A model generated the notes under the pieces. That model searched no databases and had not been told where the DNA came from. It saw only the letters and a program-made list of their open reading frames with translations. This document shows positions 24,760-29,613 of a stretch of DNA of 39,064 bases, piece after piece (the first letter of the stretch is position 1; every line of letters begins with the position of its first letter). Origin of the DNA: Streptomyces albidochromogenes (GTDB lineage Bacteria; Actinomycetota; Actinomycetes; Streptomycetales; Streptomycetaceae); assembly GCF_005981925.1 (NCBI RefSeq), contig NZ_VBVX01000020.1, forward strand, positions 1 to 39,064, in the 5' to 3' direction. The position numbers were made by a program, and so were the translations under genes.

Positions 24760-26457
24760 GTGGACCCGGTGATCGTCGTGGGGGCCGGTCCCGTCGGGCT
24801 GGCCCTCTCGCTGGCTCTCGCCGGCCACGGGGTGCCCTCCGTCGTGCTCGACGAGGGGGCCGGCAAGGACGAGCCCCGTACGGCGCGTACGGCCCTCCTG
24901 CGGGCCGACACGGCGGAACTGGCCGAGCGGCTCGGCTGCGCCACGGTCCGTGACGAAGGCACGCGCTGGACCGGATGGCGGTCGATGCGGCGTCATCAGG
25001 AGGTCCGGGAGGTCCGTTTCGGGGACGACGGCGAGCTGCCGTCCCCCGTGCACCTGCCGCAGCACGACCTCACGCGCGGACTGCGCGACGCCGTCACCGC
25101 GCACGAACTCGTGCGGATCGAGTCCCACAGCCGCCTCGACACGATCGAGCAGGACGACAGCGGGGTCACCGCGCACACCCGTGAGCCGGGGGCCACCTGG
25201 TGGCGGGGCAGTTTCCTGGTCGGGTGCGACGGGGCGCGTTCGACGGTGCGCAAGCTCCTCGACATCCGCTTCCCGGGCCGTACGGCGGTCGAGCGGCACG
25301 CCGTCGCCGCGCTGCGCACGGAACTGCCCTGGGACGGAGAGGCACTGCTGCACCGCATGCCGCCGTGGCGGACCGGCGGGCAGGAGGTGACCGCGCGCCC
25401 GCTGCGGGACGGGGTGTGGCGCCTCGACTGGCTGCTGCCCGCGCGCGGTGAGCTCGTCACGCCCGAGGCCCTGGTGACGCGCGTGCGGGACACCCTGGCC
25501 GGGTGGTGCGGCGAGACGCCTCCGTACGAACTGCTCGACACCGGCGTCTACACACTGCACCACCGGCTGGCCCGCAAGTGGCGGGTGGGGCGGGCGTTCC
25601 TCGCCGGTGACGCCGCCCACCTGCTCGGGGCACTGGGGACGCAGAACCTCGACGAGGGGCTGCGGGACGTCGACAACCTCGCCTGGAAGCTGGCGCAGGC
25701 CTGGCATCTGGGCGCTTCCCCGACGCTGCTGGACAGTTACCAGGCCGAGCGGCGCTCTGCCGTCGCCGCCCGCCTGCGCGCCGCCGACCAGGCGCTGCCG
25801 ATACTGCGGGGCAGCGGGCTGCGGACGTACCTGCCCGGCACCGCGCGCGGGCACGACACGCTGCTCACGGACGGGCACCTGGGGCGCGGAGCCCTGGGGG
25901 CGCCGCCGGCGTACACGGGCTCGCCGCTCGCGCCCCCGGAGTCCGAGGCGCAGACGCTGGTCGGCACCCCCATGGGCGGGCCGGCCGCCGACGTGCGGGT
26001 GACGGCGCCCGACGGTGCCACGGTGCGGCTGCGGGACCGGCTGGGGCGGGGGCGGCAACTGGTGGTGCTGGTCGCGCCGGGAACCGGTGTGTGGGACCGG
26101 CGGCACTGGATGACCGCCGGGGTGATGCCGCGGCTGGCGGCGGCGGTGACGGCGCTGCCGGTACGGGCCGAGCTGCTGGTCACGGAGGGCTACCCGGGGG
26201 CGTCGGCGCACACCGTGCTGCTGGTGCGGCCCGACGGGCATCTGGTCGCGGCGTTCCAGGGGGTGCGGCCGGCCGAGCTGTACGCGGCGGCGGACGCGGC
26301 GCGCGGCGGCCCGCCGGTGTCGGCGCAGGCCGGGCCGGGTCCGCAGCGCTCCGGGGAGGCGGAAGGGCCGGTGGAGCCCTCGCCCTCCGACGGCTCCGGC
26401 GGGCCCGACGGGGCCGCTCCGGCCGACCTCAGCGACCGTACAGCGGACATCAATTGA
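24760..26457 (+). CDS. FAD-dependent aromatic-type monooxygenase (PheA/TfdB family)
   Basis: This 565-residue flavoprotein hydroxylase uses NAD(P)H and oxygen on a probably aromatic or polyketide-like substrate. The Rossmann motif is GAGPVG (8-13), the NAD(P)H/FAD DG motif is VGCDGARSTVRKLL (154-167) and the GD motif is FLAGDAAHLLGALGTQNLDEGLRDVDNLAWKLA (starting about 280), in which the usual Pro and GGxGxN are changed. The last 130 residues resemble the thioredoxin-like C domain of this family, then a Pro/Ser/Gly-rich tail. GTG 24760 has GGAGG eight bases upstream; the frame is open much further up but only through the glu terminator. Its stop codon lies inside the -35 box of the next transcript. 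No biosynthetic neighbours reveal the substrate. Confidence 0.85.
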   Translation: MDPVIVVGAGPVGLALSLALAGHGVPSVVLDEGAGKDEPRTARTALLRADTAELAERLGCATVRDEGTRWTGWRSMRRHQEVREVRFGDDGELPSPVHLPQHDLTRGLRDAVTAHELVRIESHSRLDTIEQDDSGVTAHTREPGATWWRGSFLVGCDGARSTVRKLLDIRFPGRTAVERHAVAALRTELPWDGEALLHRMPPWRTGGQEVTARPLRDGVWRLDWLLPARGELVTPEALVTRVRDTLAGWCGETPPYELLDTGVYTLHHRLARKWRVGRAFLAGDAAHLLGALGTQNLDEGLRDVDNLAWKLAQAWHLGASPTLLDSYQAERRSAVAARLRAADQALPILRGSGLRTYLPGTARGHDTLLTDGHLGRGALGAPPAYTGSPLAPPESEAQTLVGTPMGGPAADVRVTAPDGATVRLRDRLGRGRQLVVLVAPGTGVWDRRHWMTAGVMPRLAAAVTALPVRAELLVTEGYPGASAHTVLLVRPDGHLVAAFQGVRPAELYAAADAARGGPPVSAQAGPGPQRSGEAEGPVEPSPSDGSGGPDGAAPADLSDRTADIN

Positions 26458-26482
26458 CCCCTGCGGGCGTGCGTGGTGTACT
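26454..26482 (+). promoter_or_regulatory. Promoter of leader peptide-cysteine dioxygenase operon
   Basis: TTGACC (26454-26459) and TGTACT (26477-26482) are separated by 17 nt, a close fit to the housekeeping sigma consensus. The -35 overlaps the TGA stop of the monooxygenase. Transcription seven to eight bases after the -10 would begin at or beside the GTG at 26490, giving a leaderless message. Confidence 0.65.
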
Positions 26483-26489
26483 CCGGAGC

Positions 26490-26576
26490 GTGACCGACAC
26501 CGATGTGCGCCTGTGGCGGAGGGTCCATATGGACCTCGTCCGCTATGCGGGCTGCGTGTGTCGCCCGTCCTGCTGA
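26490..26576 (+). CDS. Cys-rich leader peptide of the cysteine dioxygenase operon
   Basis: This 28-codon ORF ends VHMDLVRYAGCVCRPSC, the signature of a short actinobacterial family annotated as putative leader peptide and found before sulfur genes. Three of the last seven residues are Cys. No usable Shine-Dalgarno precedes GTG 26490 (GGAG is only one base away), but the promoter predicts a transcript starting right there, so translation is probably leaderless. A second in-frame GTG at 26505 would give the shorter family form. Related Cys-rich upstream ORFs in mycobacteria are leaderless and sense cysteine supply through ribosome stalling. Here codons 26-28 overlap a segment (26565-26572) complementary to the ribosome site of the next gene, so translation of the Cys codons may control cysteine dioxygenase synthesis. 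Confidence 0.8.
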   Translation: MTDTDVRLWRRVHMDLVRYAGCVCRPSC

Positions 26577-26652
26577 TTCGCCTCTTCCCCCTTCACGCGC
26601 TGTGCCGTGCCGTGCTTCCGGCCGCGCGTTCTCGCGAACATCCCCAGGACGG
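26565..26652 (+). promoter_or_regulatory. Candidate anti-Shine-Dalgarno pairing in the leader mRNA
   Basis: CCGTCCTG (26565-26572, inside the last codons of the leader ORF) is fully complementary to CAGGACGG (26645-26652), which includes the AGGA ribosome site of the cysteine dioxygenase gene (start 26659). A ribosome on the leader tail would break this pairing. This is a seen complementarity; the switching role is inferred. Confidence 0.45.
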
Positions 26653-26658
26653 TCTCCT

Positions 26659-27204
26659 GTGTCTCTTTCCGTACGTTCCCCGGGCGCGCCCGAAAGCGCT
26701 CCCCGGAACGCCGCCCCTTCTTCCTCGGAACTGCTCGATTTCGTGCGCCGCACCGCCGCGGACGCTTCCCTGGTGGCTTCTCTTCCGCTCGATCCCGAAG
26801 GCCGTACCTGGGTACGGCTCGACGGGCCCGGCGGCAGTGAGGCGTGGCTGATCGGCTGGCCGCCCGGTACGGGCACCGGCTGGCACGACCACGGCGGCTC
26901 GCACGGCGCCTTCGCCGCCGCGGCGGGCACCCTGCGCGAGGAGTCGCTCGCGGCGCGCCTGCCCACCGAGGGCTGGAAAACCCTCGAACTGGCCGACGGG
27001 GTCGACCGGGAGCGCGAGCTGACGGCCGGCCGGGGCCGCGCCTTCGGCGCGCATCACGTGCACCAGGTGCTGAACCGGTCGGCCGACGAGCACGCCGTCT
27101 CGGTGCACGCGTACTACCCTCCGCTGCCGATGATGCGGCGCTACAGCCGCACGGGCGCGGTGCTGCGTCTGGAGCACGTCGAGCGTCCCGAGGAGTGGCT
27201 GTGA
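26659..27204 (+). CDS. Cysteine dioxygenase (cupin)
   Basis: This 181-residue cupin of the bacterial cysteine dioxygenase type I family oxidises L-cysteine to cysteine sulfinate with Fe(II) and O2, limiting toxic cysteine. Iron ligand candidates are H76 and H78 in WHDHGGSHG and a His of the AHHVHQV stretch (132-135). SVHAYYPPLPMMRRY near residues 148-162 is the conserved Tyr-containing C-terminal motif of the family. The first 20 residues are Pro/Ser/Ala-rich. GTG 26659 has AGGA nine bases upstream. It overlaps the rhodanese start by four bases (GTGA), so both are one operon with the Cys-rich leader. Related thiol dioxygenases (for example mercaptopropionate) cannot be excluded. Confidence 0.85.
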   Translation: MSLSVRSPGAPESAPRNAAPSSSELLDFVRRTAADASLVASLPLDPEGRTWVRLDGPGGSEAWLIGWPPGTGTGWHDHGGSHGAFAAAAGTLREESLAARLPTEGWKTLELADGVDRERELTAGRGRAFGAHHVHQVLNRSADEHAVSVHAYYPPLPMMRRYSRTGAVLRLEHVERPEEWL

Positions 27205-27590
27205 GCGGCGGACCTGTCGGCATCGACGAACTGCTGGAGCGGGTGCGCGAAGGGCTCGACCGGCTCGGCCCGCGGGAGGCGTACGACGCCGCCTCGGCCG
27301 GCGCGCTGCTGGTGGACATCCGGTACGCCGCTCTGCGCGAGCGGGACGGGCTGATCCCCGGAGCGCTCGTCGTCGAACGCAACGAGCTGGAGTGGCGGCT
27401 CGATCCGCAGGGCAGCCACCGGGCTCCGGAGGCCACGGGTCATGATCTGCGGGTCGTGGTGATCTGCAACGAGGGGTACGCGTCGAGTCTCGCGGCCGCG
27501 TCGCTGCGGCAGTTGGGGCTGCACCGGGCGACGGACCTGGACGGCGGGTTCCAGGCGTGGCGCGCGGCGGGACTGCCGGTGACCCCGTAG
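27201..27590 (+). CDS. Rhodanese-like sulfurtransferase
   Basis: This 129-residue single rhodanese domain has its active Cys89 in the loop CNEGYASS, which would carry a persulfide. Other landmarks are LLVDIRYAALRERDGLIPGA (about 36-55) and DLDGGFQAWRAAGLPV at the end (112-127). The start GTG 27201 overlaps the cysteine dioxygenase stop codon, so the two are translationally coupled and likely act together on excess cysteine or sulfane sulfur. Standalone rhodanese domains of this size transfer sulfur from thiosulfate or persulfides to acceptors; the natural acceptor is unknown. Confidence 0.88.
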   Translation: MSGGPVGIDELLERVREGLDRLGPREAYDAASAGALLVDIRYAALRERDGLIPGALVVERNELEWRLDPQGSHRAPEATGHDLRVVVICNEGYASSLAAASLRQLGLHRATDLDGGFQAWRAAGLPVTP

Positions 27591-27621
27591 GCGCCGGCCG
27601 GTGGGGAGCCGTCGGGCGCGG

Positions 27622-27650
27622 GCGCCCGGCGAGCTTCTGCCGCCGGGCGC
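27622..27650 (+). terminator. Terminator after the rhodanese gene
   Basis: Perfect 10-bp GC stem (27622-27631 with 27641-27650), 9-nt loop, 31 bases after the rhodanese stop codon. Confidence 0.65.
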
Positions 27651-27664
27651 TTGGGCCCCGTTCA

Positions 27665-27704
27665 TGTGCCCGGTCCCCTGTGCCCGGTTCCTGTGCCCGG
27701 TCCC
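27665..27704. repeat. Short tandem repeat, 13-14 bp unit, three copies
   Basis: Three near-identical units based on TGTGCCCGGTCCC at 27665-27678, 27679-27691 and 27692-27704, followed by further CCCGGT-rich sequence. Intergenic, no evident function. Confidence 0.7.
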
Positions 27705-27879
27705 TGGGTTCGGCGCCTGGGCCCGGTGCCGGGGCGGCCCGCACCCGCTATCCCGGGGTCGGCTCCCGGGCCCCCGGCCCTGGGCCGTGGCGCCGGCACT
27801 CTCCTGCGCGCGGACGTCGCTGGGACGGCATGCCGCCGCGCACACGTCGACGCGACGGGAGCGGATCCGCCGCCACGGC

Positions 27880-28482
27880 TCAGAGCGGGTCATAGTCCAG
27901 ACCGTCGGTCGTCTCGCCCTCTTCTTCGAGGGCGCGTCTGACGACCCGCAGGGCCATGCCCTCCGGGTAGCCCTTGCGGGCGAGCATTCCGGCCAGGCGC
28001 CGCAGCCGTCGGTCGCGCTCCAGGCCGCGGGTGGAGCGGAGCTTGCGGTCCACGAGCTCGCGGGCCCGCTCCTCCTCCTGGTCGGCGTCGAGCTGCCCCA
28101 TCGCGTCGTCGATGAGGGTGGGTGCGACGCCCTTGTCGCGCAGTTCCCGGGCGAGGGCCCGCCGGGCCAGACCCCGGCCGTGGTGGCGGGACTCCACCCA
28201 GGCGTCCGCGAAGGCCGCGTCGTCGATGAGACCGACCTCCTCGAAGCGGGACAGCACCTCGTCGGACACATCGTCCGGGATGCCCCGCTTCCGGAGGGCG
28301 TCGGCGAGCTGCTTGCGGGTGCGGGCGGTCCCGGTGAGCAGCCGCAGGCAGATCGCCCGCGCCTGCTCACCCGGGTCCTGAGGCGGCAGCCCCTTCCCGG
28401 CCCTCGACGGGGAGGGGCTGCCGCTGTCCTCGGCGTCCGTGCCTTCGCTCGCGTCCCCCGGCCAGTCCGTCCTCCGGGTCAC
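27880..28482 (-). CDS. recX: Regulatory protein RecX
   Basis: This 200-residue RecX binds RecA filaments and limits their activity. It is all-helical with three RecX repeats, visible as ICLRLLTGTARTRKQLADAL, VGLIDDAAFADAWVESR with GRGLARRALARELRDKGV, and KLRSTRGLERDRRLRRLAGMLARKGYPEG. The N-terminal 35 residues are acidic Ser/Pro-rich and probably flexible. The GTG start at 28482 lies three bases after the recA stop codon, so it is made from the recA transcript and shares its SOS control. It is convergent with the rhodanese gene. Confidence 0.93.
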   Translation of the reverse strand: MTRRTDWPGDASEGTDAEDSGSPSPSRAGKGLPPQDPGEQARAICLRLLTGTARTRKQLADALRKRGIPDDVSDEVLSRFEEVGLIDDAAFADAWVESRHHGRGLARRALARELRDKGVAPTLIDDAMGQLDADQEEERARELVDRKLRSTRGLERDRRLRRLAGMLARKGYPEGMALRVVRRALEEEGETTDGLDYDPL

Positions 28483-28485
28483 GGT

Positions 28486-29613
28486 CTAGCTCTTGGCTGC
28501 CGCGGGCTTGGCCGTCTTGGCCTTGGTCGCCGGAGCCGGCACGGACTTCGCGTCGGCGGCCGCCGGGGTGCTGCCCGCCGCGTCAGCACCGGGCTCGGCG
28601 CCCGGAGCCGCCGGCCTCACACCGACGCCCAGCTTCGTCTTGATCTTCTTCTCGATCTCGTCGGCGAGATCTGGGTTGTCCTTCAGGAAGTTGCGGGCGT
28701 TCTCCTTGCCCTGGCCGAGCTGGTCGCCCTCGTACGTGTACCAGGCGCCCGCCTTGCGGACGAAGCCGTGCTCCACGCCCATGTCGATCAGACCGCCCTC
28801 GCGGCTGATGCCCTGGCCGTAGAGGATGTCGAACTCGGCCTGCTTGAAGGGCGGCGCGACCTTGTTCTTGACGATCTTCACGCGGGTGCGGTTGCCGACC
28901 GCGTCCGTCCCGTCCTTGAGGGTCTCGATGCGACGGATGTCGAGCCGCACCGAGGCGTAGAACTTCAGCGCCCGGCCACCGGTCGTGGTCTCGGGCGAGC
29001 CGAACATCACGCCGATCTTCTCGCGGAGCTGGTTGATGAAGATCGCCGTGGTGCCGGACTGGTGCAGGGCACCGGTGATCTTGCGCAGCGCCTGGCTCAT
29101 GAGCCTGGCCTGGAGGCCGACGTGCGAGTCGCCCATCTCACCCTCGATCTCCGCGCGCGGCACGAGGGCCGCGACGGAGTCGATGACGATCAGGTCGATG
29201 GCGCCGGAGCGGACCAGCATGTCCACGATTTCCAGTGCCTGCTCGCCGGTGTCCGGCTGCGACAGGATCAGGTTGTCCGTGTCCACGCCGAGCGCCTTGG
29301 CGTACTCGGGGTCGAGCGCGTGCTCGGCGTCCACGAACGCGACGGTGCCGCCGGCCTTCTGCGCGTTGGCCACCGCGTGCAGCGTCAGGGTCGTCTTACC
29401 GGAGGACTCCGGTCCGTACACCTCCACCACGCGGCCGCGCGGCAGGCCACCGACGCCGAGGGCGATGTCCAGGGCGGTCGACCCGGTGGAGATGACCTCG
29501 ATGGGGTCGTTCGGCCGGTCGCCGAGGCGCATGACCGCGCCCTTGCCGAATTGTCGTTCAATCTGCGCGAGCGCGGCGTCGAGCGCCTTCTCGCGGTCGG
29601 TGCCTGCTGCCAT
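28486..29613 (-). CDS. recA: Recombinase RecA
   Basis: This 375-residue strand-exchange ATPase also acts as LexA co-protease. Walker A is GPESSGKTT (67-75), Walker B is in [10 protein letters not shown], and the L1/L2 DNA loops are around [19 protein letters not shown] and [20 protein letters not shown]. The C-terminal 45 residues are Ala/Pro/Lys-rich, the usual extended tail of Streptomyces RecA. ATG 29613 has GGGTGGA upstream. A perfect actinobacterial LexA box lies about 130 bp before the start. recX follows three bases after the stop codon. Confidence 0.97.

Follow-up and report, generated by a model that had tools for sequence, protein, structure and literature searches.

Why should an enzyme expected to degrade cysteine carry what looks like a leader for cysteine scarcity? 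The question is raised by an operon in the window, by which we mean the whole stretch of 39,064 nucleotides that was analysed, taken from a genome of 7.27 Mb in 795 contigs. A cysteine dioxygenase and a rhodanese-like protein are there preceded by a short ORF with Cys codons near its stop (positions 22, 24 and 28 of 28). The finding most worth following is a codon rule joined to constant residues: in the sequences compared, one cysteine of this ORF and its relatives is written UGU, behind an equally constant R..D..R.

The leader ORF and its operon

The dioxygenase scores 157.4 bits against CDO_I (E 3e-46), exceeding the gathering cut-off of 23, and resembles the solved cysteine dioxygenases 8qfr and 8qfl in the PDB. 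Frames resembling RecA and RecX, recognised by eye, adjoin the operon and, with the GC content, suggest Streptomyces as the genus. In the ORF list the leader frame appears as the tail of a longer open frame from 26091, and an upstream FAD monooxygenase frame ends inside the -35 box, its stop codon being 26455-26457. Coordinates are collected in Table 1.

Table 1. Features of the dioxygenase locus, in positions of the window
Feature	Position	Strand	Description	Basis
Promoter	26454..26482	+	-35 TTGACC 26454-26459, 17 nt, -10 TGTACT 26477-26482	sequence and conservation in 64 genus leaders
Leader ORF	26490..26576	+	MTDTDVRLWRRVHMDLVRYAGCVCRPSC*, 28 codons, GTG..TGA, probably leaderless	sequence; NF042934; genus matches
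Arg11 codon	26520..26522	+	AGG in 64/64 genus leaders	alignment of genus leaders
In-ORF hairpin beside Arg11	26521-26526, 26531-26536	+	GGGTCC, ATAT, GGACCT	fold
Cys24	26559..26561	+	conserved family cysteine, codon TGT, proposed sensor codon	family and dioxygenase leaders
Anti-Shine-Dalgarno strand	26565..26572	+	CCGTCCTG, codons 26-28	pairs with 26645-26652
TTCGC	26577..26581	+	proposed second helix with GCGAA 26634-26638	near the helix in MFE fold
Dioxygenase Shine-Dalgarno	26645..26652	+	CAGGACGG, predicted sequestered	fold, model, pairing counts
Cysteine dioxygenase type I	26659..27204	+	GTG start, 181 aa	Pfam CDO_I PF05995
Rhodanese-like protein	27201..27590	+	start overlaps dioxygenase stop	Pfam PF00581

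An earlier note on this DNA had described the promoter TTGACC-17-TGTACT before a 28-codon GTG ORF and proposed a leaderless architecture. The boxes and the ORF read as described, with 7 nt between the -10 box and the GTG, and the peptide is matched in 343 of the 392 genomes of the window's genus (g1) at E<=0.001, by which a chance ORF is rejected. A strict sigma-70 scan of 25500-28500 found no promoter; the -10 box is without A at position 2. Among 64 genus leaders (the window's included), which were chosen from the better peptide matches and thus are not a random sample, T at -13, A at -10 and T at -8 are each kept in 62, the exact 17-TGTACT-7 arrangement is found in 38, and the start codon is ATG in 36, GTG in 26 and shifted in two. 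This set omits L053 and L141, which come from the same genomes as L025 and L082, and the short locus L047, where the leader was not located. The earlier note had suggested a search of the genus for conserved spacing; both promoter boxes and the 7-nt distance to the start codon (ATG or GTG) are largely preserved, in favour of a leaderless start. Since the start lies only 7 nt past this conserved promoter, the ORF probably begins the transcript without a Shine-Dalgarno.

Arg11 is AGG throughout the genus set although AGG makes up 39 of the 567 Arg codons in the dioxygenase genes of that set, hence the RNA, and not the peptide alone, seems constrained at this position. A GGAGG also lies 6 nt 5' of an in-frame ATG (Met14) at 26518-26531, within the GGGTCC-ATAT-GGACCT hairpin.

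In other genera of the same family, 49 loci with this dioxygenase were examined and a leader was found upstream in 44, two of which are divergent (L123 and L130, without Arg-13); the remaining five yielded none (L127, L129, L131, L132 and L133). Upstream of lower-identity dioxygenase paralogues the motif was found in 0 of 20 regions, that of L285 being 278 bases only; the search expression had no positive control and the window peptide fits it by reading. The dioxygenase sets omit L137 (genus g1, a partial dioxygenase, no leader located), the paralogue L139 and L138, in which a leader with UGU stands ahead of a more distant dioxygenase. In genus g83, 7 of the 9 located dioxygenase leaders have a single Cys in the stretch that runs from the motif to the stop, so being Cys-rich, as the earlier note called the ORF, is not essential; what the leaders have in common is one UGU codon and R..D..R.

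One UGU codon in the NF042934 family

The leader ORF scores 37.1 bits against NCBIfam NF042934 ('putative leader peptide', cut-off 27, residues 6-24) and 18.3 bits against NF042933, the Ms5788A family Cys-rich leader, which is below the cut-off of 45. The former score supports the link to cysteine-responsive leaders drawn in the earlier note, and puts the window leader, whose target is unusual, in a family that is known though little studied. NF042934 has matches in 57 of the 79 class genomes sampled; the 55 genomes taken from outside the class gave none (the latter search also re-ran 5 in-class genomes, with matches in 3). In the window's own genome 6 matches are above the cut-off, the window leader included, 2 weaker ones are seemingly real and 8 are seemingly chance. 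By Pfam, the sibling targets there are a sulfatase, a CysO-like ThiS protein, a sulfite/nitrite reductase, a two-rhodanese sulfurtransferase, a flavin reductase and a dicarboxylate transporter, and in 4 other genomes of the class an APS kinase, a CbiX protein and two solute-binding proteins. Clear sulfur genes (sulfatase, ThiS, sulfite/nitrite reductase, rhodanese, APS kinase) thus stand behind at least 5 of the 10 sibling leaders checked, the other five being less clear. The frame after ThiS reads like cysteine synthase.

For the codon comparison we used 113 family leaders, that is, 109 fetched class-wide and 7 from the own genome, minus L177, L178 and L185, where the scan had mislocated the match. 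The conserved Cys codon is TGT in all 113, and Cys24 is TGT in all 108 dioxygenase leaders (64 from the genus, 44 from other genera). The remaining Cys codons of the 113 leaders divide into 94 TGC and 19 TGT (Fisher p 1e-44, overstated as the leaders are related to one another), and those in up to 19 downstream frames into 21 TGC and 2 TGT. A degenerate pattern, detecting only leaders whose remaining bases fit, matched 26 of 31 genus genomes with TGT at Cys24 and 0 of 392 with TGC. The base directly after the conserved TGT is G in 2 of 111 leaders, versus 36 of 105 for the codon that follows (p 5e-11).

The residues Arg-13, Asp-9, Arg-6 and Cys0 are likewise invariant in 113 of 113, the first three being written with 5, 2 and 5 codons (for Arg-13 CGG 42, CGC 35, CGT 16, CGA 14 and AGG 6); it should be noted that retrieval by a protein profile favours conserved residues and cannot favour a codon. 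From these counts both the peptide and the decoding of one codon seem to be selected. Strong conservation of the peptide could also be expected if it acted in trans as a small protein, for instance by binding metal or thiol, but a codon-level rule at one Cys and the single Cys in most located g83 dioxygenase leaders make this hardly credible.

In the usual description of attenuators, several codons of an amino acid serve to sense it. Here one codon is exceptionless in 113 leaders sampled across a class, with no more variation in three residues that lie 6 to 13 positions before it, which makes a nascent-chain effect on decoding directly testable via one synonymous change. The codon rule fits a decoding step, where cysteine would be sensed as Cys-tRNA at one slow codon. 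Among 61 tRNA matches in the own genome (RF00005 and ARAGORN), of which one, in L348, received no name, there are two clearly different tRNA-Cys genes (L330 and L332, with 54 identical positions in a 76-column alignment), both with anticodon GCA; UGU is therefore presumably read via G-U wobble. An initial pattern search for tRNA-Cys, replaced by these two tools, gave five matches not resembling tRNA-Cys. Codon bias in attenuators has been ascribed to differently charged isoacceptors (PMC1183508, in the part available). As both tRNA-Cys genes have GCA, selective charging would not separate UGU from UGC, and the UGU rule does not fit this explanation. A +1 frameshift at UGU was dropped because the codon before it varies. 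Our literature search, covering few subscription journals and leaving supplements aside, returned no report naming the dioxygenase leader or the UGU rule.

Pairing of the leader end with the dioxygenase start

In folds of the genus sequences, the final codons of the leader, CCGUCCUG, are complementary to the dioxygenase Shine-Dalgarno CAGGACGG. The helix has 8 of 8 pairs in 59 of 69 leaders and 6 or 7 pairs in the other 10; these counts and the model below omit L142 and L144, where the dioxygenase start was not located. One pair changes from U-A to C-G in three g93 sequences and to U-G in two g96 sequences, and is broken in three sequences. We regard this covariation as suggestive, not strong, since as many sequences break the pair as compensate it in g93. 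The two elements of the proposed second helix, UCGC and GCGA, occur together in 56 of 69 leaders. In L087 the leader end is altered to AGGTCCTG and a perfect partner CAGGACCT lies immediately 5' of a normal CAGGACGG, which looks like a duplication of the pairing; the ribosome model gives no release there.

Other RNA structures were also considered. Rfam returned no family over 26300-26900 at E<=1. An intrinsic terminator with a U tract was rejected, the one site being weak (5 bp, 26645-26659, over the Shine-Dalgarno) and 0.6 such sites being expected by chance. The g87 dioxygenase leaders (L088-L116) mostly end C.CTAAR, several with GCGCGC-TGAC-GCGCGC spanning the stop codon; their Shine-Dalgarno (for example AGGGTGGTAACCC) is capable of folding back on itself. 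In g83 the leaders L117, L118 and L126, with one Cys from motif to stop, have a perfect hairpin CGGCTAGC-n5-GCTAGCCG across a TAG stop. Striking as they are by eye in these two genera, hairpins across the leader stop were rejected as a general feature, the mean z being -0.3 to -0.5 against dinucleotide shuffles of the 113 leaders.

To model opening of the dioxygenase start, the ribosome was treated as a block covering 15 nt on either side of the first base of the P-site codon, for leaders within 160 nt of the start and leaving aside genus g83 with its single value (L122). The mean opening cost in 62 genus leaders is 14.5 kcal/mol with no ribosome, 13.95 with the ribosomal A site one codon before Cys22, 12.2 at Cys22, 8.7 at Cys24 and 8.9-9.4 between Cys24 and the stop. 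Seven leaders of neighbouring genera behave alike (14.4 to 8.3 kcal/mol). For the window leader the cost is 12.0 kcal/mol when free, 8.7 with the ribosome at Val23 and 6.9 at Cys24, and the start stays closed with the ribosome at Cys22 (15.0, or 12.5 with a shorter 5' end). The mean release in 28 leaders is 5.7 kcal/mol, versus 1.6 in synonymous recodings; 54 of 420 recodings reach the release of their own original (3 of 15 for the window leader), and in four of the leaders (L040, L085, L086 and L087) the release is 1.3 kcal/mol or less. In the model, then, the leader sequence would sequester the downstream RBS and a stalled ribosome would free it, as is asked of mycobacterial attenuators. Plain translational coupling, where any ribosome on codons 23-29 opens the start and the leader tunes output with no cysteine sensing, gains from the model, where a ribosome anywhere between codon 23 and the stop opens the start; as it leaves the UGU rule and the invariant residues unexplained, we think it very improbable.

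The same model gave no release in 18 g87 leaders (flat near 8.5), one g94 leader and two other leaders. Among six modelled siblings from the own genome (L010 left out), five were without RBS release and one (dctA) had about 2 kcal/mol. Hence the RBS switch appears to be lineage-specific, and as a family-wide mechanism it is unsupported by the six siblings.

It is here that Rho-dependent transcriptional attenuation has to be weighed, in which a paused ribosome would shield a C-rich stretch after the leader and the RBS helix would be secondary or a refinement of the genus. Besides the six siblings without comparable release, base composition speaks for it: the C/G ratio past the leader stop is 1.35-1.6 in the 113 family leaders, versus 1.1-1.15 upstream, and 1.5-2.7 versus 0.7-0.85 in the genus dioxygenase leaders. 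For mycobacterial cys leaders, Rho had been mentioned as a possible mechanism in 2005 (PMC1262725, in the part available). Base composition by itself is no proof of a Rho site, however, and the RBS helix, which keeps at least 6 of 8 pairs in 69 of 69 sequences, would be unneeded under Rho control alone. For the dioxygenase operon we find this alternative unlikely.

Sign of control and relation to known systems

The explanation that we prefer, and to which we give an even chance of being right, is that the leader is an NF042934-type leaderless peptide acting as a translational attenuator of the dioxygenase-rhodanese operon, sensing at UGU24 and turning the operon ON in scarcity. The sequences themselves show the ORF and its conservation, its place in the family, the complementarity and, within the sample, the UGU rule. 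That a ribosome at codon 24 opens the dioxygenase start is modelled, and we infer that the start is leaderless, that UGU is decoded slowly and that cysteine is the signal. With ample Cys-tRNA, the ribosome would run through the leader and depart, and the CCGUCCUG:CAGGACGG helix would shut the dioxygenase start. Under a shortage of Cys-tRNA, a ribosome would dwell at the slow UGU codon 24, its front edge would cover the anti-Shine-Dalgarno strand, and the start would open for the dioxygenase to be made. With fixed upstream residues whose codons are free, the nascent chain would sharpen the pause at UGU.

The earlier note had suggested a reversed sign, with induction by abundant cysteine. This is not favoured, as the RBS is predicted to open at Cys24 and siblings precede sulfite reductase and APS kinase. 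A ribosome at UGC22 opens the start little or not at all in the model and one at UGU24 does, which predicts that the dioxygenase is ON when Cys-tRNA is short. It would then be ON alongside sulfur genes bearing the same kind of leader, and for the sulfite reductase and APS kinase behind siblings such a sign makes sense. ON in scarcity is also the sign of the mycobacterial attenuators (PMC9031893 and PMC13236596, in the parts available). For the dioxygenase itself it is odd, given that its expected role is cysteine degradation.

TnaC of the tryptophanase operon is a leader peptide with a degradative target, a conserved nascent chain and arrest by excess amino acid near the leader end. The dioxygenase leader is like it in its degradative target, its conserved nascent chain and a ribosome held, as we propose, near the leader end, and differs in that its codon rule points to tRNA limitation. 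The reversed sign could be obtained by a TnaC-like arrest peptide, if abundant cysteine stopped the ribosome near Cys24 or the stop codon, so that the start opened and dioxygenase were made in excess. A nascent chain acting in the tunnel predicts what is seen for Arg-13, Asp-9 and Arg-6, invariant in 113 of 113 leaders with varying codons (the protein-profile sampling favouring conserved residues), and in the model a ribosome on the stop codon likewise opens the start, at 9.1 kcal/mol. Dioxygenase genes do rise when Streptomyces SCUT-3 grows in feather medium, with cdo1 up 50-fold and cdo2 8-fold in the part of PMC7181669 available, although neither gene is tied to a leader-bearing copy; this rise counts against ON in scarcity. 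Arrest by the peptide only would leave the UGU requirement unexplained, and induction by excess makes little sense for siblings with the same motif ahead of sulfite reductase and APS kinase. On balance we judge such an arrest improbable. In S. shaoguanensis at 96 h two dioxygenase genes, not tied to a leader-bearing copy, are up 22- and 6-fold, and cysD/cysNC/cysC/cysH are up at the same time point (PMC12763843, in the part available). The joint rise of dioxygenase and sulfate-reduction genes fits a shared signal.

Further, we speculate that NF042934 as a whole is a cysteine gauge, codon-locked and peptide-primed, a proposal that is tentative and rather more likely to fail than to hold. With Arg-13, Asp-9 and Arg-6 fixed in the exit tunnel, the nascent chain would make the ribosome depend on one UGU, wobble-read by a GCA tRNA-Cys and almost never followed by G, so that one codon replaces a run of sensor codons. 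The dioxygenase leader would add the RBS switch, putting a cysteine-degrading enzyme under a scarcity signal.

Within NF042934 the window leader shares the R..D..R.....C core and differs from its siblings in its cysteine-degrading target, in having three Cys versus one or two in many of them, and in the RBS pairing of its last codons, unmatched in the six tested siblings of the own genome. In the mycobacterial polycysteine leaderless short ORFs (Ms5788A), reportedly described by Canestrari in 2020, the leader sequence is said to pair with the downstream Shine-Dalgarno. The leader resembles these ORFs in its predicted leaderless start, Cys codons beside the stop, Shine-Dalgarno pairing and sulfur genes (PMC9031893 and PMC13236596, as far as available), and is unlike them in lacking a polycysteine run and in standing before a dioxygenase operon. 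Seliverstov 2005 predicted cys leader peptides of Mycobacterium, P. acnes and B. longum (PMC1262725), and these too are short ORFs with Cys codons near the stop and no terminator; they have Cys runs, and the accessible part of that paper contains no Streptomyces or dioxygenase case. In the same part of PMC1262725, the LEU element before leuA in Actinobacteria likewise pairs its sensor-codon region with the target Shine-Dalgarno, and differs in its leucine codons and a pseudoknot. The uORFC-8-2 cysS attenuator of Rhodobacterales has cysteine codons in its leader ORF, as here, and differs in having an intrinsic terminator and in UGC being dominant with some UGU (PMC8632094, in the part available), whereas UGU is exceptionless in our sample.

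Two leaders from genus g4 (L160 and L162) are polycysteine leaders, KRRAVDLCRVAGCCCCCCSC, which share the R..D..R core, have UGU for the conserved Cys, and by their sequences link polycysteine leaders to single-Cys ones. The S. lividans leader named metL, before metNIQ, ends ARCMCRRMCAF with three Cys (PMC8079986 Table 4, in the part available); a cysteine rather than a methionine signal is conceivable for it.
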